IMG/VR virus record: IMGVR_UViG_3300031857_001346
Location: 1-24,249 of that record
Length of the DNA stretch: 24,249 nucleotides
Origin: a virus
Strand: one strand, 5' to 3'
In this document: positions 792 through 22,872 of the stretch, one piece after another
Position numbering within the stretch: the stretch's first letter is position 1
Layout: each line of letters starts with the position of its first letter
Program-made: the position numbers and the translations under genes
Notes under the pieces: generated by a model
Database searches by the model: none
Seen by the model: the letters and a program-made list of their open reading frames with translations, nothing else
Told to the model about the DNA's origin: nothing

Positions 792-1213
792 GCAACCGAC
801 GCATCGACGCGCAGCGTGCCCGCGAACTGCTCGCAGCCGCCACCCCAGGCCCCTGGGGCCAGGATGACGCTTGCGGGCACTTTGAGGTTCACATCTACGC
901 CCCCAAGGGGGAACCGAGACTGAGCATGAACTACTGGGAGAGTCTCGTCATCGTCCACGGAAACGAGGACCAGCCGAGGATCGGCTACCAAGTCGCATGG
1001 GGTAACGCTGACCTCATCTGCGCCGCGCATGACCTCGCGCAGACCGTGGTGGACCTGCACGCTGAGGTGGAGCGCGCCGCCTCCGCCGAGCGTGGCCGCA
1101 TCGTGGCGTGGCTCCGTGCCTGGGCCGACGCATACGAGCCGAAATACTCCGTCTATCCTGACGATTGCCGCGATCTTGCTGACCGCATCGAGCGCGGAGA
1201 GGTGACCCCATGA
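788..1213 (+). CDS. Ead/Ea22-like phage accessory protein
   Basis: A 141-residue soluble protein with the pattern common in phage accessory proteins of the Ead/Ea22 type. It has an N-terminal R[11 protein letters not shown] (about residues 12-23), then a divergent central strand region, then [23 protein letters not shown] (about 74-96), leading into a helix. These proteins are widespread in phage early regions but have no established biochemical role. The C-terminal part ([12 protein letters not shown]...LADRIERGE) looks like an added helical hairpin and resembles the gene before it. It overlaps both neighbours by 4 nt. Function is unknown; the family recognition is by motif only. Confidence 0.75.
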
Positions 1214-1695: not shown

Positions 1696-2072
1696 AGCCC
1701 GAGCTCGAAGCCCTCGCCCGCCGCGCCGTTGCCTGCCCTCGCTGGCGGTGGATTTCTGGGATGCTGCGGCTGCGCGACGCTCCCGGAAAGGCAGACCACG
1801 GCAAGCGCGAGGGGCGCGTCGAGGCTCGCGACGAGTGGTCTTACGCCGAGTGGCCTTGTCTGCCCGACCTTACCGACCCCGCCACGCTGGGCTGCTTGCT
1901 CGCGCTGGTGCGGGAGTCCTGGGGTCAGACCGCCTACACGATGTACTACTACAGCCGGTGGATGTCGTGCGGCCGGTGGACGTTGTGCGCGGACCGCGAC
2001 CAGAAGGTCGATCCGGGTGACGACGTGACCGAGGCTGGCGCGCTCGTCTCCGCCCTGGAGGCCGCGCCATGA
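1692..2072 (+). CDS. Conserved phage hypothetical protein
   Basis: A 126-residue protein with the pattern A[11 protein letters not shown]..GM at the N-terminus (residues 9-24). It continues with [18 protein letters not shown] (about 58-75) and a C-terminal [15 protein letters not shown] recall this combination from many phage hypothetical proteins, usually among small accessory genes, without an assigned function. The central part is variable and Tyr/Trp-rich. It overlaps both neighbours by 4 nt, including a start that sits on the end of the pentapeptide gene. No membrane segment is seen. What it does is unknown. Confidence 0.75.
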
Positions 2073-2335
2073 AGCGCCACTACACCTACGGCGAGGAGCG
2101 AGGCATCGGCACGCTGCTCTACGGTGACGCACGCATCTGGGTAGGCGGCACCTACCGCACCGCCTGCGGGCTGTGGCTCCAGCTCGATGCGTGCGCCGAC
2201 TACGTCACCGGCGTCACCTGTGCGTCTTGCTCGCGCGCCCTGGACCGTGACGCGCCCGATCTGACGGTGCGGTGCCTGCACCGGTGGCACGCGCACGCTG
2301 GCCTGCATGACTGGCACCAGGGGGTGGCGTCATGA
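2069..2335 (+). CDS. Small Cys-rich (putative zinc-binding) protein
   Basis: An 88-residue protein. A possible metal site is formed by TACG (Cys33) together with VTCASCSRAL (Cys51, Cys54); Cys42, Cys69 and several histidines near the C-terminus (HRWHAHAGLHDWH) could also take part. The order TxCG, then about 15-20 residues, then VTCxxCxxxL is common in small phage proteins next to replication or modification genes. No catalytic motif is seen. It overlaps its neighbours by 4 nt in the accessory operon. Zinc binding is an inference from Cys spacing; the function is unknown. Confidence 0.7.
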   Translation: MKRHYTYGEERGIGTLLYGDARIWVGGTYRTACGLWLQLDACADYVTGVTCASCSRALDRDAPDLTVRCLHRWHAHAGLHDWHQGVAS

Positions 2336-2538
2336 CGCCCGAAGACTACGGCAACGCGGAGGGCGAGTTGTGGCTCCCCACGCCGTGCGGGCACATCCAG
2401 GCCGCGGACATGCGGATCAACGCCTGCCCCTACTGCGGCGCGAGCATCAAACGAAGCCGGGCCGAGGAGGTCGGGCACAACCTTTGGCTGGCTTGGGCCA
2501 AGCGTGAAGGACTGGTGGTGAACCATGATCGAGACTGA
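2332..2538 (+). CDS. Small zinc-ribbon-like protein
   Basis: A 68-residue protein with TPCGH (Cys19, His21) and NACPYCGASIK (Cys32, Cys35), a half-knuckle arrangement typical of minimal zinc ribbons. A short C-terminal amphipathic segment (GHNLWLAWAKREG) follows. The start overlaps the previous stop by 4 nt. The 3' end overlaps the next gene by 14 nt, the only unusually long overlap among these small genes. DNA or protein binding is plausible for such ribbons but not shown. Confidence 0.7.
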   Translation: MTPEDYGNAEGELWLPTPCGHIQAADMRINACPYCGASIKRSRAEEVGHNLWLAWAKREGLVVNHDRD

Positions 2539-2713
2539 CCGCGAGCGGCTGCGCACCGCAGTCCGCGACCTGCCGGGGCAGAGCACGCGAGAGCTTGCCG
2601 AGGCGCTCGGCATGAGCAAGCGCAACGCGCTCACCGACCTGTCGCGCCTCGAGCGCGAGGGACTGGTTGAGCGGTGGTGGGACGGCAGGTCCACGCGATG
2701 GTTCCCGCCATGA
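2525..2713 (+). CDS. Minimal winged helix-turn-helix protein
   Basis: A 62-residue protein that is essentially one winged-helix domain. It has helix 1 (RERLRTAVRDL), then the turn-helix pair STRELAEALGMSKRNALTDLSRLEREGLVER (about residues 20-50), then a wing (WWDGRSTRWF). The pattern is that of MarR/IclR/ArsR-type DNA-binding domains. With no sensor domain it may be a small phage transcription factor. Its stop overlaps the methyltransferase ATG (ATGA), so the two are translated together, and it could tune expression of this operon. That regulatory target is an inference. Confidence 0.75.
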   Translation: MIETDRERLRTAVRDLPGQSTRELAEALGMSKRNALTDLSRLEREGLVERWWDGRSTRWFPP

Positions 2714-3684
2714 GCGCCTACTACAACGAGATCGACCCTTTCGCCGCGGCTTGGCTGCGCGAGCTCATCAAGCATGGCCACATCGCACCGGGCGAGGTGG
2801 ACGAGAGGAGCATCACCGATGTCCGACCAGCTGACCTTGTGGGGTTCACCCAGGTCCACCTATTTGCCGGCATTGGAGGCTGGAGTCTCGCCGCCCGCCT
2901 TGCCGGATGGCCCGACGACCGTCCCCTCTGGACCGGCTCGGCCCCCTGTCAGCCCTTCTCTGGCGCAGGACGCCGCGGCGGCACCGACGACGAGCGCCAC
3001 CTCTGGCCCGTCATGCGCGACTTGGTCGCCGTCTGCCGACCTCCAGTCGTCGTTGGAGAGCAGGTTGCGAGCGGCCTTGGCCTCGACTGGTTGTCCGATG
3101 TACGTTCTGACCTGGAAGCCGAGGGCTACGCGGTCGGGGCCGCCGATCTGTGCGCTGCGGGGGTCGGTGCGCCGCACATCCGACAGAGACTCTACTGGGG
3201 TGGAGTCAGGCTGGCCGACACCGGCGGCGAACGAGTTCGAGACAGCCGATGTGGATCGGATGCTCGAGCGACGGGAGGAGTGCCGAGCCAAGGGGTACAA
3301 CGGGAACGGGTTCGGCATGACGCTGGGCATGACGACCATGGCAGTCCTGCACGGCTGGGCGACACCAGCGGCACGCGACTACCGGTTCCCCAACCTGCGA
3401 CCCTGGGCGGAGAGGGGTGGCGGGACGCGAGGGGAGCAGCTCAACAACCAAGCGGCGCACCTCGCGGGCTGGACGACGGAGGATGGACCGGCGCGGCTCA
3501 CCGTGGATGGGCAGATGCTGACTGGCTCTTCTGCCGGGATGGCAAGTGGAGGCCAGTTGAACCCGCAACATTCCCGCTGGCTCATGGGGTACCCAGCCGC
3601 GTGGGAAGACTGCGCGGCTACGGCAACTCCATCGTCCCGCAAGTCGCGGCGACGTTCCTCCGAGCCCTCGTAGGTGACCCATGA
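2710..3684 (+). CDS. DNA (cytosine-5-)-methyltransferase
   Basis: A 324-residue phage-type C5 cytosine methyltransferase that would methylate phage DNA using AdoMet. Visible motifs are FAGIGGWS (motif I, residues 52-59), the catalytic PCQ loop (SAPCQPFSGAG, Cys80), GEQVA at 116-120 in place of the usual ENV, and HIRQRLYW (156-163, the QRxR-like motif). Near the end, DGKWRPVEP and LRGYGNSIVPQVA form motif X. The GEQVAS variant is common in phage enzymes. The ATG at 2710 is chosen because it overlaps the previous stop (ATGA) and begins the family's usual YNEIDPFAAAWL start; in-frame ATGs upstream lie inside the winged-helix gene. The target-recognition region (about 165-290) is low-complexity and Gly/Arg-rich, probably because the same DNA is also read in the +1 frame. 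Confidence 0.88.
   Translation: MSAYYNEIDPFAAAWLRELIKHGHIAPGEVDERSITDVRPADLVGFTQVHLFAGIGGWSLAARLAGWPDDRPLWTGSAPCQPFSGAGRRGGTDDERHLWPVMRDLVAVCRPPVVVGEQVASGLGLDWLSDVRSDLEAEGYAVGAADLCAAGVGAPHIRQRLYWGGVRLADTGGERVRDSRCGSDARATGGVPSQGVQRERVRHDAGHDDHGSPARLGDTSGTRLPVPQPATLGGEGWRDARGAAQQPSGAPRGLDDGGWTGAAHRGWADADWLFCRDGKWRPVEPATFPLAHGVPSRVGRLRGYGNSIVPQVAATFLRALVGDP
2803..2810 (+). promoter_or_regulatory. Shine-Dalgarno of the overlapping +1-frame ORF
   Basis: GAGAGGAG stands 8 nt before the ATG at 2819, inside the methyltransferase coding sequence. It is a strong ribosome-binding site at normal spacing. It decides the start of the nested ORF over the earlier ATG at 2774. Confidence 0.6.
2819..3673 (+). 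CDS. Nested +1-frame ORF with WPTP and LNPxxxxWLMG motifs
   Basis: A 284-residue ORF lying wholly inside the methyltransferase gene in the +1 frame. It looks like a real protein. It starts MSDQLTLWGSPRST, then has SSLESRLRAAL (78-88) and PMYVLTWKPRATRSG (93-107). Next come repeated GWPTPAA (131-137) and GWATPAARDYR (179-189) blocks, LAGW, and PARLTVDGQMLTGS (224-237). It ends with GGQLNPQHSRWLMGYPAAW (244-262) and a basic tail containing PSSRK. I recall the LNP...WLMGxP..W and WPTP patterns from predicted phage proteins and methyltransferase-associated regions; I could not check this. A good Shine-Dalgarno precedes the ATG. The stop falls 11 nt before the methyltransferase stop. It may be an accessory to the enzyme, but the function is unknown. 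Confidence 0.68.
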   Translation: MSDQLTLWGSPRSTYLPALEAGVSPPALPDGPTTVPSGPARPPVSPSLAQDAAAAPTTSATSGPSCATWSPSADLQSSLESRLRAALASTGCPMYVLTWKPRATRSGPPICALRGSVRRTSDRDSTGVESGWPTPAANEFETADVDRMLERREECRAKGYNGNGFGMTLGMTTMAVLHGWATPAARDYRFPNLRPWAERGGGTRGEQLNNQAAHLAGWTTEDGPARLTVDGQMLTGSSAGMASGGQLNPQHSRWLMGYPAAWEDCAATATPSSRKSRRRSSEPS

Positions 3685-5774: not shown

Positions 5775-6512
5775 TCAGGCAGGCGACCACGGCAGAGACC
5801 CGGTCGAGAGCGGAGCGTACCACGCACGGAAGCGCACCGCGTGGGGTCCGTTGTTCGCCGTGGAGGCGCAGCTCGCGAACAAGCAGATGCGCTGCGCGCC
5901 GGTGTGCGAGGACAGGGCGAGAGTCTCGGTGCCGTTGACCACGTTCCCGGCTTGGTCCTGCCCACCGGCAAACGACACGATGTGCTGGGTCGGCGTCACG
6001 ATGGAGTAGCCAGCCAGGCGCGAGCCGGGGACGCTGCTTTGGCTGTTCGCGGATGCCAGCGTGGCGGCGATCAGCGTGTAGTCTGCCGCGGCGGCGGGGG
6101 TCGAGATCCCGATGAGCAGGCCAGATCCACCCGCGGTGGGGTCGCCGTCGTTGTCCACGACGCCCATGCCGACGAGCTCGCTCGCGGCACTACCTGCCCA
6201 GCCGGTGGGGTCGCGCTGGAGCAAGAACAGCAGCACCCTGGTCGTGCCGAGCGTCGAGGTGTCGAACGGCAGACCCGACGAGTCGAGGATCGGCCAGGAC
6301 AGCCACGCGGAAACATCGGGCGCGCCCCCGATGGGCGATGGGTTCTCCAGGTCGAGCGTGATCCAGCCTTCCGCGTCCTGGGAAGCGGACGACACGCGCA
6401 CCGGCGAGGTGTTGTCCTGCCACACGCCGCCCTGCTGCGACGAGCCGAGCCGCAGCATGCGCCACGGGATCGGCGGGGTCGCCGCGGCACCGCCAAGGAT
6501 CGGGCCGATCAT
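5775..6512 (-). CDS. Putative tail-tip/receptor-binding protein
   Basis: A 245-residue protein of beta-strand-forming composition, rich in Gly, Ser, Thr, Ala and Trp, with no membrane segment or cysteine cluster. It is the last of three consecutive fibre-type genes after the baseplate genes and has a 4-nt overlap with the one before. Recurrent short patterns (SASQDAEGWITLDLENPSP, GWAGSAASELVGMGVVDNDGDP) look like lectin- or jelly-roll-like strands. The C-terminus ends in aromatic-rich VRFRAWYAPLSTGSLPWSPA. A role at the distal tail tip in host recognition is inferred from position and composition only. Confidence 0.5.
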   Translation of the reverse strand: MIGPILGGAAATPPIPWRMLRLGSSQQGGVWQDNTSPVRVSSASQDAEGWITLDLENPSPIGGAPDVSAWLSWPILDSSGLPFDTSTLGTTRVLLFLLQRDPTGWAGSAASELVGMGVVDNDGDPTAGGSGLLIGISTPAAAADYTLIAATLASANSQSSVPGSRLAGYSIVTPTQHIVSFAGGQDQAGNVVNGTETLALSSHTGAQRICLFASCASTANNGPHAVRFRAWYAPLSTGSLPWSPA

Positions 6513-7309
6513 GTCGTGGACTCAAGCGAGCAGGGCGTGAGGTCCACGCGGGCGAGGTAGGTCACGGAGCCGTCGCCAGCCACGCCAGCTACGTCGAGCA
6601 GCACGGCGGCGACACGGAGCAGACCGGAGCAGTCCATCCGCATGGCCATGCCGCCGGTGCCGACAGCGTACCGGGCGAGGCCCGTCGCCGTCGAAGCGGC
6701 GATCTCGCGCCAAGTGGTGCTGCGGATGCCCGCGTCGTAGACCGCCCCGCCAGACGGGTTGTGCGACGGGTGCGCGTACAGGCGCATCTCGGCGCTCTCG
6801 GCGTCGGCGTACAGCTCGAGGACAGCCGTGCCGGTGGCCGCGGCGTTGAACGAGTAGGTGGACGGGTCCACGGCGTAGTACGCGGTGTTGGCCTTGCCAC
6901 GGATTCGCAGGACCGGCGTGGCCGACGAGTCATAGCCGGTCCAGGAGTCGGCCTGGACGATGGCCGACACGGTCACATCGGCGTTGATCGCAGCCGCCCA
7001 CGCCGTGATGAGCGCAGCTCGGGTGGCGAACGGACCCGCGCCAGCGGACACGTTGTTGCCGTCGATGCTGACCCCGTAGCTGGCCGAGCCGTCGAACGTG
7101 GCGACGTTGACGTAGCAGGTGCGCCGGAATGGGTCGATGCGGAGCGCGGGCAGCACGAACAGCGCCATGCGACCGGAGATCGGCACGCCGCTGGTGTCGG
7201 TCAGCGGGGAGGTGACATCGCTGGCGTCGTAGCCCCCGATGGCGGAGGGACTGCGCCCTGCCGCAAGGTTGGTGACGACGTAGCTGAGACTGACCAGATC
7301 GCCTGCCAT
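6509..7309 (-). CDS. Putative tail fibre/structural protein
   Basis: A 266-residue protein of Ser/Ala/Thr-rich beta-type composition. I choose ATG 7309, which has GGAG 5 nt upstream; a GTG at 7315 that overlaps the previous stop (GTGA) is possible but has poorer spacing. The N-terminal half includes ISGRMALFVLPALRIDPFRRTCYVNVATFDGS. The middle has FATRAALITAWAAAIN, a helix often seen in phage decoration or fibre repeats. The C-terminus reads LRVAAVLLDVAGVAGDGSVTYLARVDL. It sits between two other fibre-type genes. The exact role is unknown. Confidence 0.5.
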   Translation of the reverse strand: MAGDLVSLSYVVTNLAAGRSPSAIGGYDASDVTSPLTDTSGVPISGRMALFVLPALRIDPFRRTCYVNVATFDGSASYGVSIDGNNVSAGAGPFATRAALITAWAAAINADVTVSAIVQADSWTGYDSSATPVLRIRGKANTAYYAVDPSTYSFNAAATGTAVLELYADAESAEMRLYAHPSHNPSGGAVYDAGIRSTTWREIAASTATGLARYAVGTGGMAMRMDCSGLLRVAAVLLDVAGVAGDGSVTYLARVDLTPCSLESTT

Positions 7310-7311
7310 GT

Positions 7312-8190
7312 TCACTCCACCGCGAACTTGCGGATCTTAAGGCGCACCGCTCCGACATCAGCAGTCGAACTAGATACGGCGAGAGCAGCGTGATAGATCC
7401 TGGCAAAGTACCGATTTGTCGAGGTGTTAACGTCCAGGGGGACGCCGCTCCGGTTGTCGGTCGGGGTTGCGGAGTCGATCTGATAGATCACGGTCTCAGC
7501 ACCCGTGGATTTAACCACGCTGACGATCTCGACCTTCGTTGTTGTCGAGCCCGTGACCGTTCCGGTGAGCTCAACGAACTGATACCGAACCGTCGAGAGC
7601 GCATCCGCGGTCGGGTTCTCCAGGAGCCACGGGGACAGCGACTGCCGAACTTCCGCGTTTCGAGCGGTAGAACCGCCGGTGATATGGTACAGATACCCTT
7701 CGCCCGTGCCCGTCACCCGGTACAGGATGTCGGCGGAGGTCGAGGGCTGGACGACTGCCCAGGAGCCCAGATCACCGGAGATGTCTGCATAGACATCGAG
7801 GCCGGTCGAGGCAACGCGGTAGGACAGACGGACGCCCGACGACGCCTCTGCGCGGGCGAGGATCCCGTCTTGCGCGTCGATGGTGTCGTATGCGATCACA
7901 CCGGAGGACGAGACCGTCAGTCGGAGCGTGCCTGAGGACGACCGCAACGCGATGGTGTCGGAGTAGATCCCGAACGAACCACCGGATCCATCGATCCGCG
8001 AGAGGGTCAACTGCCCGGTGTACAGGTAGGTCGTCCACTCACCAAAGTGGTAGAGCAGATCGTTGATGTGGGCCGCGGCGGGCCTCTCACCCTGAGCCCA
8101 GCCGATCTGCTGGAGCGCGACGGGCGGAGTCGTCCGCAGAGCAGCGGGATCATATGCCCAGCGGACTGGCGCGGACGCGGGAGGTGCCAT
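7312..8190 (-). CDS. Putative tail fibre protein, baseplate-proximal
   Basis: A 292-residue protein. Residues 25-56 (ALQQIGWAQGERPAAAHINDLLYHFGEW and onward) match a layout I associate with N-terminal attachment regions of tail fibres: a GW..GE(R/K)P motif, a conserved Asn and a helix ending in W..YL. The rest is repetitive beta-structure (SSSGTLRLTVSSSGVIAYDTIDAQ and similar). The AT content of the gene is slightly higher than its neighbours, which is common in exchangeable fibre genes. It follows the DUF2612-like baseplate gene with a 4-nt gap. It likely docks fibres to the baseplate. Confidence 0.58.
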   Translation of the reverse strand: MAPPASAPVRWAYDPAALRTTPPVALQQIGWAQGERPAAAHINDLLYHFGEWTTYLYTGQLTLSRIDGSGGSFGIYSDTIALRSSSGTLRLTVSSSGVIAYDTIDAQDGILARAEASSGVRLSYRVASTGLDVYADISGDLGSWAVVQPSTSADILYRVTGTGEGYLYHITGGSTARNAEVRQSLSPWLLENPTADALSTVRYQFVELTGTVTGSTTTKVEIVSVVKSTGAETVIYQIDSATPTDNRSGVPLDVNTSTNRYFARIYHAALAVSSSTADVGAVRLKIRKFAVE

Positions 8191-12152: not shown

Positions 12153-12815
12153 TCAGAAGGGGTTGATGGCTTGCAGCCCAGAAGTGAGGGACTCTTTGAG
12201 GTTCCAGAGCAGACCCTCTCTTGGCTCCTGCACACCGTCCTGAGCCTCGGCGTCGAGGTCTCCCCTGACGGAGTTGGATGCTCCTCCGCCTGCGCCCCCG
12301 CCTGTGCTGATCAGCCCAGCAGTCGTCCTGGAGTCTACCAGCCGCACCTCGCGGACGCCGATGGTCGCCTCGATGAAGTTGTCCATCGTCATGGTCAGGC
12401 GCATCGTTGTGATGAGGCAGTCCGACAGGCCGGGTCGTTTTGGCACAGCGACAGTCCACAGCGTTGTGCTCGCGCTCAAGATCCAGTCCCGAAACGCATC
12501 GTACTTGGCGCGGTTGGCATTGCCGGTCACACCCTTGCGCTTGAGGTCGATGCCGGTCACGATGCCGGTGAACATCATCTCGGACGGCAGTCGCTGGGTG
12601 TGATCGCTGATCTCCGCCCCGCGCTCGACCGGATGACTGGTCACAGACCAGTTGTAGTTGAGGTCCACGCTCTTGGCGAGGTCGAGCTCAAGCACCTCGT
12701 TGGTGTCCTGACGGATCAGCGTCACATACCTATAGGATGCTGTTGATGTTGGAGTTCCAATCTCAACAGTTGGGTTGATGACGTTGACATCGATGATCTC
12801 AATGTTGATAGCCAT
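12153..12815 (-). CDS. Dit-like distal tail protein
   Basis: A 220-residue protein immediately after the tape measure gene. Residues 58-86 (VTSHPVERGAEISDH and onward to FTGIVTGI) match the N-terminal Dit-like signature 'HPVE.Ga.itDH....P..l...G.v'. These proteins connect the tube end to the baseplate. The rest has AKYDAFRDWILSASTTLWTVAVPKR (a strand-helix segment) and TMTMDNFIEATIGVREVRLVDS. A Gly-rich linker (about 170-180, STGGGAGGGAS) precedes a short C-terminal helix, suggesting a flexible tail domain. It overlaps the tape measure stop by 1 nt. Confidence 0.78.
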   Translation of the reverse strand: MAINIEIIDVNVINPTVEIGTPTSTASYRYVTLIRQDTNEVLELDLAKSVDLNYNWSVTSHPVERGAEISDHTQRLPSEMMFTGIVTGIDLKRKGVTGNANRAKYDAFRDWILSASTTLWTVAVPKRPGLSDCLITTMRLTMTMDNFIEATIGVREVRLVDSRTTAGLISTGGGAGGGASNSVRGDLDAEAQDGVQEPREGLLWNLKESLTSGLQAINPF

Positions 12816-14425
12816 CAGCGTGTCCCCTGTGAGGCGGCATCGTTGGCCCCGCGAACCTCGGCATCGAGGACATTCCTCACGACGGTCTCAGCTTCCGCCG
12901 CGCTCAGCCCGTTGGCGTTGATGGTGACGTTGGTCAGCACCCTGTTCTGACCGGGCAGGCCATACAACTCGTCAAGAGTAACGCTTGAACCGCCGATGTT
13001 TACCTGCTGGCCTCTTCGACCTCCGCGGAAGACGCTCGAGATGTTCTCATCGATCATGAGTTGGATCGAGTTGAGCACATCCGAAAAGCCGAACTGACCG
13101 CTCTCAAGTGCTGTTGTGGCCTTCTGGAACCCGCGTCGAGCGGACTTTCCGCGCTGGGCTTGGTCCTCTGCGACTACACCGGGAAGGTCCGAGAGGTTTC
13201 CGCCAACGAGCAGTAGCCCGATGTTGGAGTCGATCCATGACATCGCCTCGCTGATCTTCTTGAGCAGCGGGAACTTGTCGTAGATCTTGTCGATAGCTTC
13301 AACGAAGCTATCCCCAAACGCCGCGGCGAACTTGGCAGCGTCACCGAGCATCCCTTTGGTCTCAGAGAGCGCGTTGCGGAACTCCGAGCCGAAGCCAAGG
13401 GCATCGGCAAGGTCAGCAAACACGGATGGGCCACCCTCCGCTGCGTACATCAGGTCTTCAATCGCCGCGACGAACAAGAGGAGAACGCCAGCGGGAGCAA
13501 CAAGGGGGGCGAGCTTGAGCGCCAGCCCACCCTCTCCGGTGCCAACTGCGAGCGAGAGCATCTTGATCGCGATCTGAGCGGCCCGCGCCGAAGCGAGCAG
13601 CCCGCCTATCGCGACGACCGTGCCGCCGATGGGGCCGGTAAGCGCGGCGAATGCATGCTTGAGCGAGTCAGCCGCCTTGTCTAGCTTGAGCGCGACCCAC
13701 TCCTTGTTGGCCTGCACCCACTCTAGGATGTCATGCGTGAGCAGCCTCAGGGTCGGCATAAGCGCGATGCCGAACCGCATGCGAAGCGCGTCTGAGGCGT
13801 AGCGCAGGCGGCGAAGGTCGCCCTCCAGCTCCACCGCGCTCTTCGCTGCCTCGTCGGTGATGACCCCGCCGAAGATGCGGGCCTCCTCGCGCATGCGCTT
13901 GATGCCCTCGCTGCCCTGCACAAGCAGGGGGAGCAGCTTGCGACCTACGTCGTCACCGAAGATGCGCGAGGCCGCGGCGGCTCGCTCAGCGGCGCTCCCA
14001 AGGCTCTGGATGCCGTCCGCGACCACCTCGAGGATCTCGTCGGGGTTCTTGCCCTTGAGTGCGCTGATCTCGACGCCTGCCGCCTTGAACGTCTTGACCC
14101 ACTCCTTGTTGCCGGTCGCAGCCTCGAGGGCGTAGTCGGACACCGTCTGAAGCGCGTCCGATACGTCGTTGGTGTCGGCACCGAGCGCGATGAACACCGC
14201 AGACAGCTCACGCGCACCCTGGACGCCGACGCCGAGACCCTCGCCAAGTCGAGCGTACTGGGTGATCTCCGCCGCGGTGGTTGCAGCCAAGCCAGCCAGC
14301 GCAGCAGCGGCAGCGAACGCCGCCTCAGACAGGCCAGCGACCGTGATCGTCGCCCTATCGTAGGCTTCGATGTCGCCCTGGAACACCAGCTCGGTGACGA
14401 GGCGCTCGACGGTGACGCTACTCAT
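12815..14425 (-). CDS. Tail tape measure protein
   Basis: A 536-residue protein located after the frameshifted chaperone, as expected for the tape measure. The N-terminal third is helical (EAYDRATITVAGLSEAAFAAAAALAGLAATTAAEI). It then has the conserved segment LSAVFIALGADTNDVSDALQTVSDYAL and GKNPDEILEVVADGIQSLGSAAERAAAASRIFGDD, which recur in phage tape measures. Two hydrophobic stretches (about 270-285 and 300-320, ending VLLLFVAAIEDLMYAAEGG) may form the channel. At about 0.15 nm per residue the tail would be near 80 nm, a short contractile tail. The C-terminus ends with a beta/helix region possibly attached to the baseplate. It is coupled by ATGA to the chaperone extension. Confidence 0.85.
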   Translation of the reverse strand: MSSVTVERLVTELVFQGDIEAYDRATITVAGLSEAAFAAAAALAGLAATTAAEITQYARLGEGLGVGVQGARELSAVFIALGADTNDVSDALQTVSDYALEAATGNKEWVKTFKAAGVEISALKGKNPDEILEVVADGIQSLGSAAERAAAASRIFGDDVGRKLLPLLVQGSEGIKRMREEARIFGGVITDEAAKSAVELEGDLRRLRYASDALRMRFGIALMPTLRLLTHDILEWVQANKEWVALKLDKAADSLKHAFAALTGPIGGTVVAIGGLLASARAAQIAIKMLSLAVGTGEGGLALKLAPLVAPAGVLLLFVAAIEDLMYAAEGGPSVFADLADALGFGSEFRNALSETKGMLGDAAKFAAAFGDSFVEAIDKIYDKFPLLKKISEAMSWIDSNIGLLLVGGNLSDLPGVVAEDQAQRGKSARRGFQKATTALESGQFGFSDVLNSIQLMIDENISSVFRGGRRGQQVNIGGSSVTLDELYGLPGQNRVLTNVTINANGLSAAEAETVVRNVLDAEVRGANDAASQGTR

Positions 14426-14990: not shown

Positions 14991-15440
14991 TCAGATCCCA
15001 GGCGGAAGGATGGCGGGGCTCGGCGGGTTGATGGTGATGACCTCGACGTTGAACGTCCAGGTGACCACGGTGGGCTGCTCGGAGCTCTTGCCCGCCGGGA
15101 TCTCGTTGAACGAGCAGCCGGTGCCGATCCAGGTCTCGCCCGTGTCGCCGCGGATCCAGGAGATCACGAAGCGCGGATCCAGACCGGCCAGGGCGAGGGC
15201 TTCCTTCTGGATCTTGAGCGCAGACAGGAACGAGTAGGTCAGGTCCGTGCTCTTGCAGGTGATCGAGAAGCCGCAGTCCAATGCCGTGATCTTGTAGGTG
15301 ACCGCACCGCCGAAGCCGCGCACCCGATTGAACTGGGGCGGAACGTCGGTCCACTCGTAGGGGTCGAGCTCGGTCGGGAACGGGACAGGCACACCGTCGA
15401 TGGTGACGGCGTGCTGAAGGAGATTCTGAATGGCGCTCAT
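14991..15440 (-). CDS. Tail tube protein (putative)
   Basis: A 149-residue protein between sheath and chaperone genes, the usual place of the tail tube. It is beta-rich with one helix, as expected for the tube fold. The segments VTIDGVPVPFPTELDPYEWTDVPPQF and GFGGAVTYKITALDCGFSITCKSTD lead to a helix (SALKIQKEALALAGLDP). They are followed by WIGTGCSFNEIPAGKSSEQPTVVTWTFNVEVITIN, which ends the barrel. Small tube proteins paired with DUF3383 sheaths (DUF3277-type) are the likely relatives. I did not see a unique signature, so the call leans on order. Its ATG overlaps the sheath stop by 4 nt. Confidence 0.68.
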   Translation of the reverse strand: MSAIQNLLQHAVTIDGVPVPFPTELDPYEWTDVPPQFNRVRGFGGAVTYKITALDCGFSITCKSTDLTYSFLSALKIQKEALALAGLDPRFVISWIRGDTGETWIGTGCSFNEIPAGKSSEQPTVVTWTFNVEVITINPPSPAILPPGI

Positions 15441-16495
15441 GCGGCACGCTCCACATAGGTGACGGTGACGACCTGGGTGGTGCCGTCAAGCAGACCGACC
15501 CGCGCCGTCGCGGTGATGATGCCCCCCGACCGGGAGGTGCTGATCTCGTAGCCCTGGGGCAGGGTGTCGTTGGGCGTGAAGTAGCCAACGGCCAAGCCGG
15601 TGTTGATGGCAGGCTGGAGGCACCCGCGCAGAGCGGCCTCGCCCGCGACGTTGTACGGCCACACCTTGTTCTGCGAGGCGAAGGTGGCGTACTGGTTCGC
15701 GATGGCCGAGCGCCACCGGTAGGTCAGGAACATGACGGCGAAGCGGGTGTACAGGTACTCGTCCGACATCGCCTTGACGCCGCCCGCGGGCGGGTAGAGC
15801 AGCGTGCCACCGGCCTCAAGAGGCACCAGCGGGTTGGCATGGTTGGCGATGGCGTTGGCGCGCTGGGTCTCGGTCAGGCTGTACGTCGCCACGCTCGCGA
15901 GAGGCGCGGTGAAGTCGGGGCGCGTCGAGTCGGCAGGCGTGCCCGCGGCACGCGAGAGGATCGCCACATGCGGATACTGACCGGCGGTCGGGTGGATGAC
16001 CACGCCGAGCGAGGCGGAGGTCGTCGGGAACCCGGCGGGAGGGGTGCCGGTGCCCCAGGCGGCATCGTCGTCGGTGACGATGGCGATCATCGGGTTGGCG
16101 TCGGTGTAGCTGGCGACAGAGGTCGCCTGCGCGCCGGTGGTCGAGTCGGGAGCGACCAAGCCGAACTGGAGGCCCGCGGTGCTGATCGCGGTGAGCGCCG
16201 CGGCGAAGGTCTCGCTGGCACCAGAGTCGCGGCGACCGATGGCAAGCTGCGAGGGGGCGGGCGACTGCGCGAACGCGATGGTGGCCATAGCGAGCGCGAC
16301 GGCGCTCACCTCGCCCGCAAGGTTGTCCGTGATGACCGAGTCGAGGCTGGAGTAGAGCCGGTAGCGGTCGCCGTCCAACGTCGAGTCGGAGCTCAGGAGC
16401 AGCAGGGTGGACAGCGCGTTGTTCGTGACCGGACGGGGCTCAACGATGAAGCTACCCGACCAGAACGTGGACATGATGGTTGCGAAGCCGGACAT
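15437..16495 (-). CDS. Tail sheath protein (DUF3383-like)
   Basis: A 352-residue contractile sheath subunit. The N-terminus contains the linker strand that reaches neighbouring subunits. A Ser/Ala/Thr-rich middle follows, with FAQSPAPSQLAIGRRDSGASETFAAALTAI (about 70-100). Near the C-terminus are YLYTRFAVMFLTYRWRSAIANQY (a helix, about 240-262), GEAALRGCLQPAINTGLAVGYF and the closing beta hairpin GIITATARVGLLDGTTQVVTVTYVERAA. This resembles DUF3383 sheath proteins of myoviruses with Gp138-type spikes. GAGGAGG, 6 nt before the ATG, lies within the last codons of the preceding gene. A contractile tail is therefore likely. Confidence 0.8.
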   Translation of the reverse strand: MSGFATIMSTFWSGSFIVEPRPVTNNALSTLLLLSSDSTLDGDRYRLYSSLDSVITDNLAGEVSAVALAMATIAFAQSPAPSQLAIGRRDSGASETFAAALTAISTAGLQFGLVAPDSTTGAQATSVASYTDANPMIAIVTDDDAAWGTGTPPAGFPTTSASLGVVIHPTAGQYPHVAILSRAAGTPADSTRPDFTAPLASVATYSLTETQRANAIANHANPLVPLEAGGTLLYPPAGGVKAMSDEYLYTRFAVMFLTYRWRSAIANQYATFASQNKVWPYNVAGEAALRGCLQPAINTGLAVGYFTPNDTLPQGYEISTSRSGGIITATARVGLLDGTTQVVTVTYVERAA

Positions 16496-16496
16496 C

Positions 16497-17072
16497 TCAG
16501 CCCTCCTCGGGCGGCGGGTAGGTGATCGTCGCCTCGGCGGCGACCACGTTAGGATCTCGGATTAGGTCTAGGTCTACCACGATTGTAGCCGTCCCGTCGA
16601 GGTCCGTGTAGACCGTCTGCCGCAGGGCGAGGCTTGTCAACGTGATCACCCAACGCGGCTCGTAGCCGGTGTCAAGGAAGTGGACGACATTGCTCAGATC
16701 GCTGGCATGGGACGGCACAACGCCAGCCGCGATCAACGCACTCGTCGCCCCCAGGTCCACGCGCCAGGCGCGGCGCAGCAAGTCGCCCCAGGTCCACGCC
16801 GCCGTGCCGTAGCCCTGGATGCTCCACGACTGCTCGACCATCTGCGTGACCGTCGAGGTGTTGATATCGTCCACGACCTCGTCCACGCGCTCTGGCAGGC
16901 CCGTGGGCACCTCGATGATGGGCAGGAGGGTGATGTACCCACCCGTGGCTCTCGGGCTCTGAGAGCCCGGTGTGCTGGCGTTCTGGAGCCACACCTTGTC
17001 GATGCTGATGCCAGCCGCGGCTGCGATCCAGGTCCGCATCGACGCGAGGTCGGTCGCGAGGTCCGTGCTCAT
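16497..17072 (-). CDS. Neck terminator protein (gp12/LIC_12616-like)
   Basis: A 191-residue protein placed just before the sheath gene. Phage neck terminator proteins that cap the tail and join it to the head occupy this place. Recognisable parts are LASMRTWIAAAAGISIDKVWLQNASTP (helix, strand), YITLLPIIEVPTGLP, MVEQSWSIQGYGTAAW and the C-terminal strand EPRWVITLTSLALRQTVYTDL. The pattern of a helix followed by V..Q....P....Y......P.. is what I expect in LIC_12616-type proteins. It starts with a Shine-Dalgarno (GGAGG) encoded by the Pro/Glu codons of the gene before. The last residues, PPPEEG, are dictated by the Shine-Dalgarno for the sheath gene. Confidence 0.65.
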   Translation of the reverse strand: MSTDLATDLASMRTWIAAAAGISIDKVWLQNASTPGSQSPRATGGYITLLPIIEVPTGLPERVDEVVDDINTSTVTQMVEQSWSIQGYGTAAWTWGDLLRRAWRVDLGATSALIAAGVVPSHASDLSNVVHFLDTGYEPRWVITLTSLALRQTVYTDLDGTATIVVDLDLIRDPNVVAAEATITYPPPEEG

Positions 17073-17452
17073 GGTTCCTCCGGTGGGGGAGGCGGCGGCG
17101 GGACGTAGGTCTCATCCTCCGCGAGCGCGACGAGGATGGTCCTCCAATGCCGCGGCACGCCGCCCACTCGGGGCCAGTCCTGCACTTGGTAGACGAGCCA
17201 AGTGTGGCCAGCCCACACGACGCGGTCAGACGGTGCCCCGCCGGGTGCAGCGGTGCGCAGCTCGGACAGGGAGTAGACCTTGATGACGGCGCGAGAGCGG
17301 TCGCCCTCGGCCAGCTGCTCCAGGTCGTGACCGCTCACGGGCTGAAGCGAGCCGCGGATGGTGCTTGAGGTGGGCGCGGCATAGCTCGGCACGCCGCCCA
17401 CGTTGGACGGAGCGGCGTAGCGTAGCCGGGTGAACGCTCGCAACCCGATCAT
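17069..17452 (-). CDS. Head-tail joining/closure protein
   Basis: A 127-residue neck protein between the gp10-like gene and the neck terminator. Strands such as STIRGSLQPVSGHDLEQLAEGDRSRAVIKVYS and RVVWAGHTWLVYQVQDWPRVGGVPRHWRTILVAL are typical of small head-closure proteins (SPP1 gp16 or lambda FII-like barrels). The HWRTILVAL segment resembles the C-terminal strand of many closure proteins. The C-terminus is odd: seven consecutive prolines, then EEP. Its last codons, CCG GAG GAA CCA TGA, contain the Shine-Dalgarno of the next gene. The exact neck role is assigned by order. Confidence 0.62.
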   Translation of the reverse strand: MIGLRAFTRLRYAAPSNVGGVPSYAAPTSSTIRGSLQPVSGHDLEQLAEGDRSRAVIKVYSLSELRTAAPGGAPSDRVVWAGHTWLVYQVQDWPRVGGVPRHWRTILVALAEDETYVPPPPPPPEEP

Positions 17453-18789
17453 GCGATCAGCTCCTGCGTGCCGTCTGGTAGCACAATCTCGGCTCGGATG
17501 CTGTTGATCAACTGTCCGGTGTCCACCAGCGGCTTGCTGGAGCCCTTCTTCTTGATCGTGTACGCGGCGTTGGGCGGCGGGACGCCATTCCGAATGGTCG
17601 CCTTGTGGTTCTGGACCATCTTTAGGCCAAGCCGACGAAGTCCGCGCTCGACGCGCTCGGCCCCCTTGTACTGCTTGCGGGCGATGTCTGCCGCCATCTT
17701 GAACCAGTTGCCCTTCTCGCGAGCGGTGGTCATCCGCATGAAAGGACGCTCAGGAATGTTGATCCCCCTCTCAGGGTCTGAGAACCCGAACTCGTTGAGG
17801 TAGGCGATCCCTGCGATGGATATGTCCAGGGTCTGACCATCGCGTGGCTTGTACTTTCTCGCCCCCGGTTCGCCGGTAAGGCCGACCGCGATGACGGCAC
17901 CCATAAGTGTGCCGATGCGAGCAAGTGCAGCCGCGATGATGCCCTTTCGGTTCTTGATCTGCTCGGAGACCTTCTTTGCGGCCTCGGCTTGGGCTCGCTG
18001 CTGCTTGATCGAAGCCTCGGTAGCTGCCTTTCTGGCGGCGCGAGATGCAGCAGCTCTGGCCTTAGATTTCTGATTCTTGAGGTTGTTCCTGTTTATCCTC
18101 GCCAGCTTCGCGACGTTCTTGTTGTACTCGCGCATGCGGCGCATGCCCGCCGCTTTTTTCCGCTTCTTGGCTTGGACTTTTGACGCTCGACGGACGCGGA
18201 TCTTCCACGCCTTCTTCTGAACCCTTGCTCTGACCGCGGCCCTCTGGCGCTTGCGGGCGGCAAGGCGACCAAGTCTGCGGGCTTGCGTCTTGGCCTTGCG
18301 CTTCTGCGCTCGTACTAGCCGACGAGCGTTGCTCCTGGCCCTCTTTATAGCTGTAGCGGCCTTCCGCTTCTCTCGACGGCGCAGGATGGTCTCTTGGCGT
18401 CGAGCCTTCTTCTTGGCGCGCATCTCGGCCTTGCGAGCCTTCTGCTCGGGCGTCCTGGCCCTGCGCTTGATGTACTGACGCTTGGGCCTCGCCGCCGCAA
18501 GCTTTGCCGCCTTGTCGGAGGCACGCTTCGCCCTGGCCCTCTCCCTGGCGGCCTTGTTCACCGCAGCTCTATAGATCTTCCCCGCCTTGCGCAGGATGAG
18601 CCGAGCCTTCTGCTTCTGGGTCGGTCCCCTCTTCTGCCGCTCGGCGGCACGCTGAGTCGTCTTAGCCTTCTGCCGGGCGACCCTAGCGCGCTCTTGATTA
18701 GAGAAGCGCCGCCTCCAGTCGGCCATGCTCTTGACTTTTCTGGCTCTGGCCTTTGCTTTTTCGATCTCGCTATCGTCGCCGCCCTCCAT
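17449..18789 (-). CDS. gp10-like neck/tail-completion protein with long Arg/Lys-rich N-terminal extension
   Basis: A 446-residue protein, about three times the usual length of a gp10-like or virion-morphogenesis neck protein. Residues about 283-446 resemble the neck domain: GIAYLNEFGFSDPERGINIPERPFMRMTT (about 326-355), then KMAADIARKQYKGAERVERGLRRLG, with PLVDTGQLINSIRAEIV (420-436) as the hallmark 'L.dTG.L..Si....' end. Residues about 11-282 are a low-complexity Lys/Arg/Ala/Gln helix. I count 105 Lys+Arg in residues 1-280 against 18 Asp+Glu. This extension looks histone H1- or nucleoid-protein-like and may bind DNA. No frameshift or stop separates the two parts. It joins the DUF4054-like gene by a 1-nt overlap. 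Confidence 0.75.
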   Translation of the reverse strand: MEGGDDSEIEKAKARARKVKSMADWRRRFSNQERARVARQKAKTTQRAAERQKRGPTQKQKARLILRKAGKIYRAAVNKAARERARAKRASDKAAKLAAARPKRQYIKRRARTPEQKARKAEMRAKKKARRQETILRRREKRKAATAIKRARSNARRLVRAQKRKAKTQARRLGRLAARKRQRAAVRARVQKKAWKIRVRRASKVQAKKRKKAAGMRRMREYNKNVAKLARINRNNLKNQKSKARAAASRAARKAATEASIKQQRAQAEAAKKVSEQIKNRKGIIAAALARIGTLMGAVIAVGLTGEPGARKYKPRDGQTLDISIAGIAYLNEFGFSDPERGINIPERPFMRMTTAREKGNWFKMAADIARKQYKGAERVERGLRRLGLKMVQNHKATIRNGVPPPNAAYTIKKKGSSKPLVDTGQLINSIRAEIVLPDGTQELIA

Positions 18790-19220
18790 CAGACGACCGG
18801 AGGCACCGCGAAGGCGGCGCGGGTGCTGCGCAAGCGCATGAGGGCGACACCGTAGTGCGTCGTCGTGAGGTCCATGTCGCCCGCCGACAGGCGAAGCCCA
18901 GCCGGGATGCCGTAGGACTGCGACAGGTCACCGGTGGTGTCCGACGTAGTCAACAGCGCCGAGCCGCCACCGAGACCCGCGAGATCCTCGGTGACCGGCA
19001 TGCGGGTCAGAAGGTGAGCCGTCATCAACGCGACAGCCTCGTTGTAGAACGAGACCGGGGAGCCGGCTGCGACCTGTCCGGTGTACTTGCTGGTCGGGTA
19101 GACCACAGGCGACAGGTACGGGCCGGTCGAGTCGGCCCAGTAGCCGATCTGCGTGTCCGTGAGCGAGGCGAACTCGGGCGCGATGGCACGCACGCGAGCG
19201 TTGACGACGGCGGATGCCAT
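18789..19220 (-). CDS. DUF4054-like head-tail adaptor
   Basis: A 143-residue protein in the connector region. The N-terminus (VNARVRAIAPEFASLTDTQIGYWADSTGPYLSP) matches the 'F...FPEFa..t...I..w...A..' start of DUF4054 and HK97 gp6-like adaptors. It is followed by a helix (NEAVALMTAHLLTRM; 'AHlLt' is the DUF4054 hallmark). Then comes a Gly/Ser loop with TTGDLSQSYGIP and the final TTTHYGVALMRLRST ('T.YG..y..L'). It would sit between portal ring and tail. The start overlaps the previous stop by 1 nt. Confidence 0.8.
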   Translation of the reverse strand: MASAVVNARVRAIAPEFASLTDTQIGYWADSTGPYLSPVVYPTSKYTGQVAAGSPVSFYNEAVALMTAHLLTRMPVTEDLAGLGGGSALLTTSDTTGDLSQSYGIPAGLRLSAGDMDLTTTHYGVALMRLRSTRAAFAVPPVV

Positions 19221-19499: not shown

Positions 19500-20642
19500 T
19501 CACGCCGTGGCGAAGAGCGCCAGCATGCAGCCCTCGGCGTAGGGCAGCTCGAGGCCGCCCGCGCTGGAGGCGTAGATGGTGACCTGACCGGTCGCATCGA
19601 CGTAGGTGTGGACGGGGGTGACATCCAGACCCTTGACGATGCGCAAGCCCTCGTTGGCCTCCGAGCGGAAGAAGAGCATGCCGTCCACGCCCGTGCCGCC
19701 GAAGTCGCGGAGCGACTTGCCGATGATGACCTGGAGGCCGAGCCCGTTGGCCTGCGCCGTGAAGAAGTCCCAAGCCGACAGCGCCGAGTACGGAGCCGCA
19801 GTCGTCGCCATGAGGCGGTTGCGGAGCCGGTCGGTGATGATGACCCGGTCGGGCGCGAGGTTCGCAGGGCTGCGCTCCTGGGCCTGCGTCATGACGTAGA
19901 CCAGCTCCGTCAGGACGTTGCCGATGGCCGCGCTGCCGATGGTCAGGCTGGAGTAGTAGCGGAGGAGACCCGGCACCGACGCCAGCGAGTAGAAGTCCAG
20001 GCCAGGAACGGTCGAGCCGCTGACCAGGGCGTTCCACCAGAAGTCGCGGATGGCGCGGTTGACCGCTTCCATCTTCCAGCGAGCGTCATCGAGGCCCGCC
20101 TGAGCGACCCGGCGAGACTCAAGCCAGCCCTGGCTGAGGGCCACGCCGCACCAATGGAGCGGACGCAGATCCTGCGACCAGGTGTAGGACACGCGGTTGA
20201 TGGCCGTGTCGTCGCCGCGGAGCAGGGTGGCGGTGCCGCCCGGCTTGACGAAGTTACGGTAGTAGCCAGCCGCGTTGCCGTCCACCGGGCGCGCCGGGAT
20301 CCCCTCGAGGATGTCGGAGCGGTCCTGGATGCGGACGAGGATCGGCGCGCCGATCTCGACCTTGCCAGAGAGGGCCGGGAGGCCCGCACCGGAGTCCTGG
20401 CGACCCGTGATCACCGGGGCAAGCTGGCGAACGAGGGAGTCGCGACGAGCGCGGTCCTGACCGGTGAGCCGGTCGATCTCGTTGAGCCACATCGCACCGC
20501 GGGCGGTCTCGGCGTCAGCACGCACCGAACTGGCGACGTTGCCAGCGATGAGCGAGGCCGGGACCGCGCCGAAGGGGCGCACGAACTGGGAGATGGGGGA
20601 GTCGGATGCGATGCGCGCACCCGCGTCGAAGATCTGGTTCAC
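19500..20642 (-). CDS. Major capsid protein (DUF2184-like)
   Basis: A 380-residue capsid subunit of probable HK97 fold. The GTG at 20642 is chosen because it overlaps the stop of the previous gene (GTGA) and has GGAG 5 nt upstream; an earlier in-frame start (20705) would run far into the previous gene. Visible segments are FVRPFGAVPASLI, ALSGKVEIGAPILVRIQDRSD, GDDTAINRVSYTWSQDLRPLHWCGVALSQGW and APDRVIITDRLRNRLMATT. The C-terminus is IVKGLDVTPVHTYVDATGQVTIYASSAGGLELPYAEGCMLALFATA. The length and position downstream of protease-scaffold and decoration genes fit. A terminator follows, consistent with a highly expressed gene. Confidence 0.8.
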   Translation of the reverse strand: MNQIFDAGARIASDSPISQFVRPFGAVPASLIAGNVASSVRADAETARGAMWLNEIDRLTGQDRARRDSLVRQLAPVITGRQDSGAGLPALSGKVEIGAPILVRIQDRSDILEGIPARPVDGNAAGYYRNFVKPGGTATLLRGDDTAINRVSYTWSQDLRPLHWCGVALSQGWLESRRVAQAGLDDARWKMEAVNRAIRDFWWNALVSGSTVPGLDFYSLASVPGLLRYYSSLTIGSAAIGNVLTELVYVMTQAQERSPANLAPDRVIITDRLRNRLMATTAAPYSALSAWDFFTAQANGLGLQVIIGKSLRDFGGTGVDGMLFFRSEANEGLRIVKGLDVTPVHTYVDATGQVTIYASSAGGLELPYAEGCMLALFATA

Positions 20643-21805
20643 GCGGCCTCCGCGACGTAGTAGGTGGTGGTCCCAATCACCTGCGACTCGCCGGTGAAGC
20701 GCCATTGCGAACCCGCGCCGACGAGGGCGACGGTGTTCTGCGAACGGGTGGGGGTGAGCGCGCCGCTGGCCGAGAGGTCAACGAACACGAAGTCACCGGC
20801 AGACGGAGCCGCCGCCGGATTGACGAGGAGACCCGCGCCGCGGAGCATGTACGGGACCGCCGTGCCGCCGCGAACGGTGGTACGGGAGCCGGTGCCGTAG
20901 GTGTCGGACGAGTCGTCGGCGGGGTCGTACACAACGGCCAGCTGACCGGGGTTCGAGCCGCTGACGCCGCTCGCCGCGGTGATCGCCGCGCCAGAGCCGA
21001 CAGCGAGGACCGACGCGGAGGTGAACGTGTAGCCCGCGGGCACCGTGACGGTGACCGTGACCACAGAGCCGACCGGAGTCGCCGCAGAAGCGGTGATCGT
21101 GCCAGGACCGAAGGTGTTGACCGCGGCAGCGGCGGCAACAGCGTTGGCACCCGTCAGGGTAGCGGTCGTGCTGGAGTCGAACTTGATCGCGAACTCCACC
21201 GCGCTGTTCGTCATGAAGTCGAACAGGCTGATGGACGCGAGATAGTTGCTCGACGCGGCGTGCGTGATCGCCAGGGTGAACGTGCCCAGCGTGGCGGCGG
21301 GCGGGATGCGGGCCTTGCGGACGCCGCTGGCGAAGTAGACCTCGACAGCCTTGCCGAAGGTGTACTCGGTCGCGGCGGCGGCGACGGTCGGGGTCGCAAC
21401 GGCCATGTGGCTGTTGGTGTCCACGACCTCGGCCACCACGATGGCCAAGCCAGGGGTGCGAGCGGTGAGCGTGACCACGCCCGCGCCGTCGTCAGCAGCC
21501 GAGAAGAGGCCGAAGGCGAGCGGGTTGGCGAGGATCGCGCTGTACATGGCCGCGGAGGCTTCCGCCGCAGACGTACCGCTATCGGTCGTGATCGCGATGA
21601 TCGCGGTCACAAACGTGAACGGGTCGGTCACGCTGATCGAGTAGGGCGAGCTATTCGACGGGCTGGAGAAGGTGACGGTGGAGACCTGAGCGACCGCGCC
21701 GTCGCCGGACGCCGCCGCACCGGCGACAGGAGTGGAGACAAGCTGGCGCACGATCTTGCCAACGCCAGTAGCGATGGGCTGCGCCGTGAACGAACCGATG
21801 GGCAT
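20639..21805 (-). CDS. Putative capsid decoration/structural cement protein
   Basis: A 388-residue protein between protease-scaffold and capsid. The ATG at 21805 has GGAGG 8 nt upstream; a TTG two codons earlier overlaps the previous stop and is less likely. The composition is dominated by Ala, Thr, Val, Ser and Gly (for example AAAAVNTFGPGTITASAATPVGSVVTVTVTV), suggesting repeated beta sandwiches. The N-terminus (IGSFTAQPIATGVGKIVRQL) and the C-terminal half (TVRGGTAVPYMLRGAGLLVNPAAAPSAGDFVFVDLSAS) look like the small cement protein that often precedes the capsid, here enlarged by an internal domain. Decoration is the best guess from position. Confidence 0.55.
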   Translation of the reverse strand: MPIGSFTAQPIATGVGKIVRQLVSTPVAGAAASGDGAVAQVSTVTFSSPSNSSPYSISVTDPFTFVTAIIAITTDSGTSAAEASAAMYSAILANPLAFGLFSAADDGAGVVTLTARTPGLAIVVAEVVDTNSHMAVATPTVAAAATEYTFGKAVEVYFASGVRKARIPPAATLGTFTLAITHAASSNYLASISLFDFMTNSAVEFAIKFDSSTTATLTGANAVAAAAAVNTFGPGTITASAATPVGSVVTVTVTVPAGYTFTSASVLAVGSGAAITAASGVSGSNPGQLAVVYDPADDSSDTYGTGSRTTVRGGTAVPYMLRGAGLLVNPAAAPSAGDFVFVDLSASGALTPTRSQNTVALVGAGSQWRFTGESQVIGTTTYYVAEAA

Positions 21806-21807
21806 GA

Positions 21808-22872
21808 TCAAGCCCTCCCGATCAGATGGGTGATGTCGTCGGCGTCGGCGCGGTGCTGCTCCGACGCGGGGACGGAGCGCGAAGCCGCGATCCAGCTCTC
21901 AAAGGTCGAGCCGTTCGCGCTATCCGCACGGCGGGCACCGGCCACGATCACAGCGTCAAGCCCGACAGAGTCGAGCGAGTCGGCGCGCTCCTTGCCAACG
22001 ATGGCACCGGCGACGGCCCGGCGGGCGTCGAGCAGCGTCACGGTGTCGGCCAGGTCCACCTTGTGCGAGGCGGCGGCGGCGAAGATCGAGCGCCACGCGC
22101 CAGCGTTGCTGTCGGCGCGATGCTCAGGCTCCTCCATCTCTTCCTTGGCGAACTTTTTGAGCTCGGCCTTGACCTCGGGGTCAGAGTGCTCGGGCTCCTT
22201 GGCTTCCTGCTCGGCCCACTTGGCGAGGGCGTCGCCAATCTTGCCGTCCATCGCGTCCATGCGGGAGTGCATGTCCTTCATGGCGGCATCGTGCGCGTCC
22301 ATGCGCTTGGAAAACGAGGTCAGATCCTCGGGACTGAACTGCATGTTGGCTCCATCGGCACGAACCGCGACTGCGGGACCACCGCGGGGGGTTAGGGTCA
22401 AGATGAGGTGGTTGGGCGCGTACATGCGGGTGCGACGGTGAGTCGCCCCGTCATGCCGGTCATCCTCCGCGGTGGGCACAGCGTCGGCGCTGTAGCCCAA
22501 CGACACGCCGCGGACGCCGCGAGCGACGGCGTCGAGACCGTCTGGCGTGTCCACGACGAGCTCACCCACCAGCGCGCCCTGCGCCGCGTCGAACCGAGCC
22601 GAGAGGATGGTCCCAGCGCGAGCGGCCCCTCGGGTGTCGCCCACATCGACCCGGTCGGGGTGTGCAACGTCCTCGAGGCCGACGACGACCGGAAGCCCGA
22701 CCAGCGACTCGATGAACTGCGGGTCCGAGAGGACGGCGGCGTCCACGCGCTCGGCACCCCAAGGGTAGCGAAGCACACCAGCTCGGGCCAACACGACCGG
22801 CAGACGGCGAGCGCCCGTGTCCAGCGTAGCTGGAACGTCGAGTCGGTCGTAGCGGGCGGGATGTGGTTGCAT
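21808..22872 (-). CDS. Prohead protease (DUF2213-like) fused to scaffold
   Basis: A 354-residue protein that probably cleaves scaffold and capsid during head maturation. Residues about 1-172 fit DUF2213-type proteases: LARAGVLRYPWG (28-39), RVDAAVLSDPQFIESLVGLPVV, HPDRV (71-75) and GVRGVSLGYSADAV (119-132). MYAPNHLILTLTPRGGPAVAVRADG (150-174) closes the domain. His71, Ser124 and His155 are candidate catalytic residues. After that, residues about 180-250 are a Met/Lys/Glu-rich helical scaffold (KRMDAHDAAMKDMHSRMDAMDGKIGD and onward). The C-terminus (KVDLADTVTLLDARRAVAGAIVG) is a normal end. The start ATG is close to the end of an 85-bp gap and has only a weak Shine-Dalgarno. Confidence 0.78.
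   Translation of the reverse strand: MQPHPARYDRLDVPATLDTGARRLPVVLARAGVLRYPWGAERVDAAVLSDPQFIESLVGLPVVVGLEDVAHPDRVDVGDTRGAARAGTILSARFDAAQGALVGELVVDTPDGLDAVARGVRGVSLGYSADAVPTAEDDRHDGATHRRTRMYAPNHLILTLTPRGGPAVAVRADGANMQFSPEDLTSFSKRMDAHDAAMKDMHSRMDAMDGKIGDALAKWAEQEAKEPEHSDPEVKAELKKFAKEEMEEPEHRADSNAGAWRSIFAAAASHKVDLADTVTLLDARRAVAGAIVGKERADSLDSVGLDAVIVAGARRADSANGSTFESWIAASRSVPASEQHRADADDITHLIGRA

Follow-up and report, generated by a model that had tools for sequence, protein, structure and literature searches.

A tail completion protein with a polybasic N-terminal arm in the head-tail gene cluster of a contractile-tailed phage

Here, we describe the gene for a tail completion protein with a long, strongly basic N-terminal extension in a stretch of viral DNA of 24,249 bases (G+C content 67%), which is a virus record catalogued as a whole assembly in itself and is called the window below. 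Profile matches place the structural gene cluster of an uncultivated contractile-tailed phage on its minus strand, in the order Mu-F-like head morphogenesis protein, DUF2213 protease-like protein, major capsid protein, DUF4054 adaptor and then the gene studied here, followed on the 3' side by an E217-gp28-like collar protein, the terminator, the sheath, the tape measure protein and then the baseplate genes. The features are listed below with the evidence for each; L004 is a diverged homologous locus.

18789..19220, minus strand: upstream neighbour, a DUF4054 head-tail adaptor-like protein (PF13262, E 2.6e-12; phrog_302)
18787..18791, minus strand: TGATG junction, where the adaptor stop overlaps the ATG of the studied gene (sequence)
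17449..18789, minus strand: the whole gene, a 446-aa tail completion (Neck1) protein with an N-terminal polybasic extension (open reading frame, PHROG_222)
17950..18789, minus strand: Arg/Lys/Ala-rich extension, residues 1-280, predicted helical (composition, model, dN/dS)
18766..18789, minus strand: N-terminal acidic tag MEGGDDSE (MKEGGDDSE in L004)
18358..18408, minus strand: residues 128-144, conserved motif KARRQETILRRREKRKA (with a single difference in L004)
18148..18450, minus strand: predicted helix H114-214, 101 residues, the most basic part (block mean pLDDT mostly 87-94, 77 at the end)
17905..18123, minus strand: predicted helix H223-295, leading from the arm into domain helix 1 without a break (model)
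17452..17949, minus strand: tail completion / HK97-gp10-like domain, residues 281-446 (PHROG_222, fold match)
17519..17577, minus strand: family signature PPNxxxTIxxKGxxxPLxDT (conserved in homologues)
17069..17452, minus strand: downstream neighbour, collar/stopper-like protein of the E217 gp28 type (PF22755, E 4e-5, below the cut-off; phrog_939, E 5e-21)
16497..17072, minus strand: tail (neck) terminator (PF23961, E 4e-13)
15437..16495, minus strand: contractile tail sheath (phrog_205, E 2.6e-25)
12815..14425, minus strand: tape measure protein, 536 aa (phrog_8125, E 2e-25)

Elsewhere in the cluster, the major capsid protein is encoded at 19500-20705 (minus strand), and between the protease and capsid genes lies a gene for a 390-aa protein (20639-21811, minus strand; Lys+Arg 3.3%, Asp+Glu 5.4%) that matches phrog_29986 weakly and is perhaps a capsid decoration protein. 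The sheath (15437-16495, minus strand) has only 352 aa against the 493 positions of the DUF3383 profile, an unusually compact contractile sheath.

The TGATG overlap likely couples translation of the adaptor and tail completion genes, judging by its sequence, and the corresponding junction in L004 is near-identical (TGAGATG); at its other end, the tail completion gene overlaps the collar/stopper-like gene by ATGA. No ATG, GTG or TTG codon occurs between residues 220 and 295 of the 446-aa protein and M296 is already within the conserved domain, so the tail completion domain cannot start alone at a normal codon, and the alternatives raised in the earlier note, a start-codon artefact or a real start near residue 283, fail. 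Two further IMG/VR contigs (L002 and L003) carry an identical gene (100%), and a third, L004, encodes, directly 3' of its adaptor gene, a 440-residue homologue of similar charge that is 52-54% identical over the full length. In a codon comparison of the window with L004, dN/dS is 0.50 in the extension (bootstrap 0.35-0.68) and 0.34 in the domain, which shows selection on the reading frame. In favour of an artefact, from a wrong start codon, from GC-rich DNA in the wrong frame or from misassembly, long Arg-rich open frames do occur 5' of the domain in other GC-rich loci. Those frames, however, are Arg-only, and an ATG lies close to the domain in them or they run across coding sequence of another gene, whereas here Lys and Arg are both high, no internal start is available, the adaptor gene stops at the ATG, the further contigs concur and the frame is under selection; an artefact is barely conceivable. 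The extension is real and its start is correct.

The whole protein matches PHROG_222 ('tail completion or Neck1 protein') at E 1.9e-37, and residues 281-446 alone match profile positions 122-262 of 276 at E 8.7e-38, which upholds the earlier reading of a gp10-like neck domain directly after the extension and refines its identity to that of a tail completion protein. Modelled alone, the domain has a mean pLDDT of 87, and its predicted fold matches 17 predicted structures of viral proteins with E ≤ 1e-3 (best E 9e-9), several of them annotated as neck or virion morphogenesis proteins. Among solved structures, Foldseek returned no useful match to the predicted domain; the absence of an 80alpha structure from its list excludes nothing. 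The position of the gene, between the DUF4054 adaptor (5') and the collar, terminator and sheath genes (3'), is alike in relatives, and relatives of the domain are present in hundreds of phage records, including those of Acinetobacter, Pseudomonas and Vibrio phages. In public records many close relatives of the domain bear the label 'RNA polymerase', apparently an annotation error passed on from record to record. The neck proteins of Obolenskvirus and Pbunavirus, HK97 gp10, lambda gpZ, SPP1 gp16.1 and 80alpha gp51 have the C-terminal domain in common with the window protein, and the same PHROG_222 proteins share its signature motif, predicted fold and head-tail cluster position. The window gene encodes a member of the tail completion class of lambda gpZ, SPP1 gp16.1 and 80alpha gp51, in a contractile-tailed phage. 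This kind of protein is already known; new here is the basic arm on it. Known tail completion proteins have 112-255 aa (PMC11099176), compared with 446 aa here.

The counts that the earlier note made by eye, 105 basic and 18 acidic residues among residues 1-280, are exact for the open reading frame on the minus strand (47 Lys, 58 Arg, 4 Asp, 14 Glu), which also has 61 Ala and 19 Gln in this part; Lys makes up 17%, Arg 21%, Ala 22% and Pro 1% (3 Pro in 280). From these counts the net charge of the extension is about +87; the computed charge is about +86 and the pI about 12. Given the extension's own base composition, at least 105 Lys+Arg in 280 residues have a probability of 3e-10, and Lys alone occurs 47 times against about 15 expected (binomial P about 2e-12), an excess contrary to that base composition. 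Upstream of the domain in other GC-rich genomes, frames read wrongly consist almost wholly of Arg and contain scarcely any Lys, whereas the extension is rich in both; of 2815 open stretches of 150 residues, from 188 sources, it is the most basic.

Homologues were surveyed over viral and bacterial collections with the degenerate signature PPNxxxT[IV]xxKGxxxPLxDT, which gave 159 loci outside the window's lineage whose 5' frame is closed; the survey covers members close enough to the family to carry the signature or match the profile. In these 159 homologues the median distance from the most upstream start to the conserved PPN motif is 128 residues, versus 404 here, so the earlier statement that such proteins usually have about 150 residues holds. 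With ATG starts, the longest extension past the normal domain in the 159 loci is about 105 residues, and no comparable extension, with strong basicity from Lys as well as Arg, occurs in any of them. In 680 further genomes searched by profile, everything found was either a compact member or an Arg-rich opening in a wrong frame. Comparison with relatives, proposed earlier as a check, finds the extension absent from the 159 other homologues and conserved in the diverged L004, and on these sequences the arm appears lineage-specific, limited to one phage lineage among those surveyed. Searches with the capsid, sheath and collar proteins returned the same contigs again, plus one (L207, from the sheath search) that starts inside the sheath gene, so the arm's history is not traceable further. 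An origin of the arm as a once-separate small gene was considered and rejected, since in L005 and L006 the small genes beside the one for the completion protein are not basic; the arm turned up nowhere as a stand-alone copy, which leaves the 'fused module' of the earlier note unproven. A tblastn comparison with 50,697 phage records gave no match for the major capsid protein or for the adjoining protease-like protein, which marks the lineage as remote from cultivated phages.

AlphaFold2 models the arm as mostly helical (residues 6-17, 22-54, 58-100, 114-214 and 223-295), with pLDDT mostly 80-94, and the domain-only model gives the same start for the last of these helices. AlphaFold often renders charged low-complexity sequence as long helices, and helical arm models for such sequence are uncertain. 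A straight arm would be about 40 nm long (0.15 nm per residue), by simple arithmetic about half the tail length expected for a 536-residue tape measure. The spectra of Lys/Arg and of Ala along the arm peak near 3.75 residues and hydrophobic residues are few, so no clear heptad coiled coil is present.

The earlier likening of the extension to H1-like nucleoid proteins is not supported. Searches with the arm gave no match that would point to such homology: nothing in Pfam up to E 10, nothing in NCBIfam up to E 1 and no PDB relative, the best PDB sequence match (ribosomal L7, E 0.35) being compositional. Tails of the H1 type, such as that of AlgP (net charge +55), are disordered and rich in Lys, Ala and Pro (PMC9239181). 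AlgP and PhaF likewise join a long, strongly basic, Ala-rich segment to a folded domain, but that tail is disordered and built of Lys, Pro and Ala with KPAA repeats, whereas the arm has more Arg than Lys and is predicted helical, and, compared with AlgP, is without the KPAA-type repeat composition of H1-like tails. From its charge, DNA binding by the arm is plausible; genome compaction is unlikely, because one copy (as in 80alpha) with a charge of about +87 neutralises only about 43 bp. The arm should rather be named a 'polybasic helical arm of unknown ligand' than 'histone-like'.

Between the window and L004, most neighbouring genes are 86-96% identical in product (one 77-residue gene, 78%), the domain is about 70% identical and the arm 45%. 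The tape measure protein (12815-14425, minus strand) diverges along with the neck protein, at 68% identity overall, 80-88% in its N-terminal half and 33-52% in its C-terminal part. Synonymous divergence is higher in the arm (1.2) and the tape measure (1.0) than in the neighbours (0.3-0.7), and part of the divergence may therefore come from older or exchanged alleles. In the arm, 155 of the 280 aligned positions have changed (including 23 Lys/Arg swaps), with 26 basic residues lost and 28 gained, and 79 positions are basic in both, versus 40 expected by shuffling; the KARRQET[IV]LRRREKRKA motif and the acidic tip EGGDDSE are almost unaltered. The arm's charge and a few spots are retained while the remainder drifts.

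A tolerated low-complexity expansion, only loosely required to be positively charged and with no specific task, would accord with the rapid divergence, with a dN/dS of 0.5 that exceeds the 0.1-0.3 of the neighbours and with occurrence in one lineage only, but the whole bootstrap range stays below 1, the motif at residues 128-144 is near-identical, the N-terminal EGGDDSE is kept, and length (438-446 aa matched) and charge are similar and near-equal, respectively, in window and L004; we consider it rather unlikely. The arm may instead be a cargo or pilot segment, ejected via the tail with the leading DNA end and binding DNA, RNA or membrane in the cell. Lying below the DNA in the channel, such a protein would exit first, divergence as rapid as that of the arm (45% versus about 90% identity for most neighbours) is typical of host-facing parts, and the C-terminal half of the tape measure diverges similarly. 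We hold this to be quite unlikely, however, as the arm has no known effector or nucleic-acid-binding domain and, so far as the SPP1 account shows, cells pre-making gp16.1 failed to rescue gp16.1-less particles, which speaks against an intracellular role for gp16.1.

The working of tail completion proteins was obscure for decades, and one has been seen in place only lately, in 80alpha, where it is a monomer within the neck, a loop of which caps the DNA end while its N- and C-terminal helices are bundled with three tape-measure helices below (PMC11661146). SPP1 gp16.1 is required for correct DNA routing into the cell (PMC11099176), and T5 p143 is located at the tail tip (PMC11784142). For contractile tails, no structure of a tail completion protein in place was found in the literature: in E217, DNA threads the portal and neck and the protein is unmodelled (PMC10329688), phage 812 is without one (PMC12886913), and neither map shows it.

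With these precedents, we infer the placement of the arm, its contact with DNA and its function as follows. About 280 residues would have been added at the N-terminus of the tail completion protein's first helix, forming an arm that is polybasic and mostly helical. The domain would be seated in the neck at the genome end, a contact that is plausible by analogy with the DNA-end-capping 80alpha protein (PMC11661146), and the arm would lie in the neck and tail channel beside the tape measure protein, its presumed partner there. Because the 80alpha N-terminal helix bundles with tape-measure helices below, extra residues at the N-terminus would be directed down the tail, and in the model H223-295 of the arm continues into domain helix 1. 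The arm would be held by the acidic channel wall, by DNA or by both, since a hydrophobic-poor arm of +87 needs a polyanion partner; by charge computation, most other structural proteins are acidic, including the tube and the terminator. It could then serve as a clamp or filler of matched charge, helping first to hold the leading DNA end and afterwards to guide it, and would exit ahead of or together with the DNA. The 80alpha analogy comes from a siphophage and a distant protein, the location of T5 p143 and the lack of a contractile-tail structure also count against the explanation, and we give this explanation as a whole tentative credence, a little short of even.

If the arm pointed upward, it would bind DNA, either the packaged genome or the final stretch inside portal and neck, in line with the binding suggested in the earlier note. 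Its strong basicity, the contact of tail completion proteins with the DNA end (PMC11661146) and the course of DNA through portal and neck in E217 (PMC10329688) all favour such an arm, yet the 80alpha N-terminal helix faces away from the DNA, a single copy of about +87 is far too little for genome packing, and there is no histone or nucleoid-protein match, so that this placement seems unlikely.

For the arm in the channel, the nearest parallel is with 80alpha gp56 and Mu gp42, likewise helical, positive proteins that fill an acidic tail channel (PMC11661146). Those phages carry the positive charge on the tape measure (net +45 in 80alpha, +34 in Mu), whereas here it is on the tail completion protein and the tape measure is acidic (net -16). 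That an acidic tape measure explains the basic arm is a weak idea only: the tape measures of BUCT618 and Amjad_SA are acidic too and their completion proteins are ordinary, so the acidity is not by itself an explanation. A doubtful proposal is that a long, single-copy polybasic rod in the tail channel below the genome end serves as DNA-end guide or first-ejected pilot, replacing the role of a positively charged tape measure. A natural variant with a large, conserved, charged arm offers a handle on whether such proteins clamp, guide or precede DNA, and the arm also bears on whether the tape measure and completion proteins share the charge balance of the channel.

Outside the head-tail region, the far end of the tail cluster holds three genes (5775-8190, minus strand; 245, 268 and 292 aa) that have no PHROG match and probably encode host-recognition or fibre proteins. 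A divergent early module occupies 1-3684 on the plus strand, with a thymidylate synthase-like gene (1-558) and a DNA methyltransferase gene (2674-3684).
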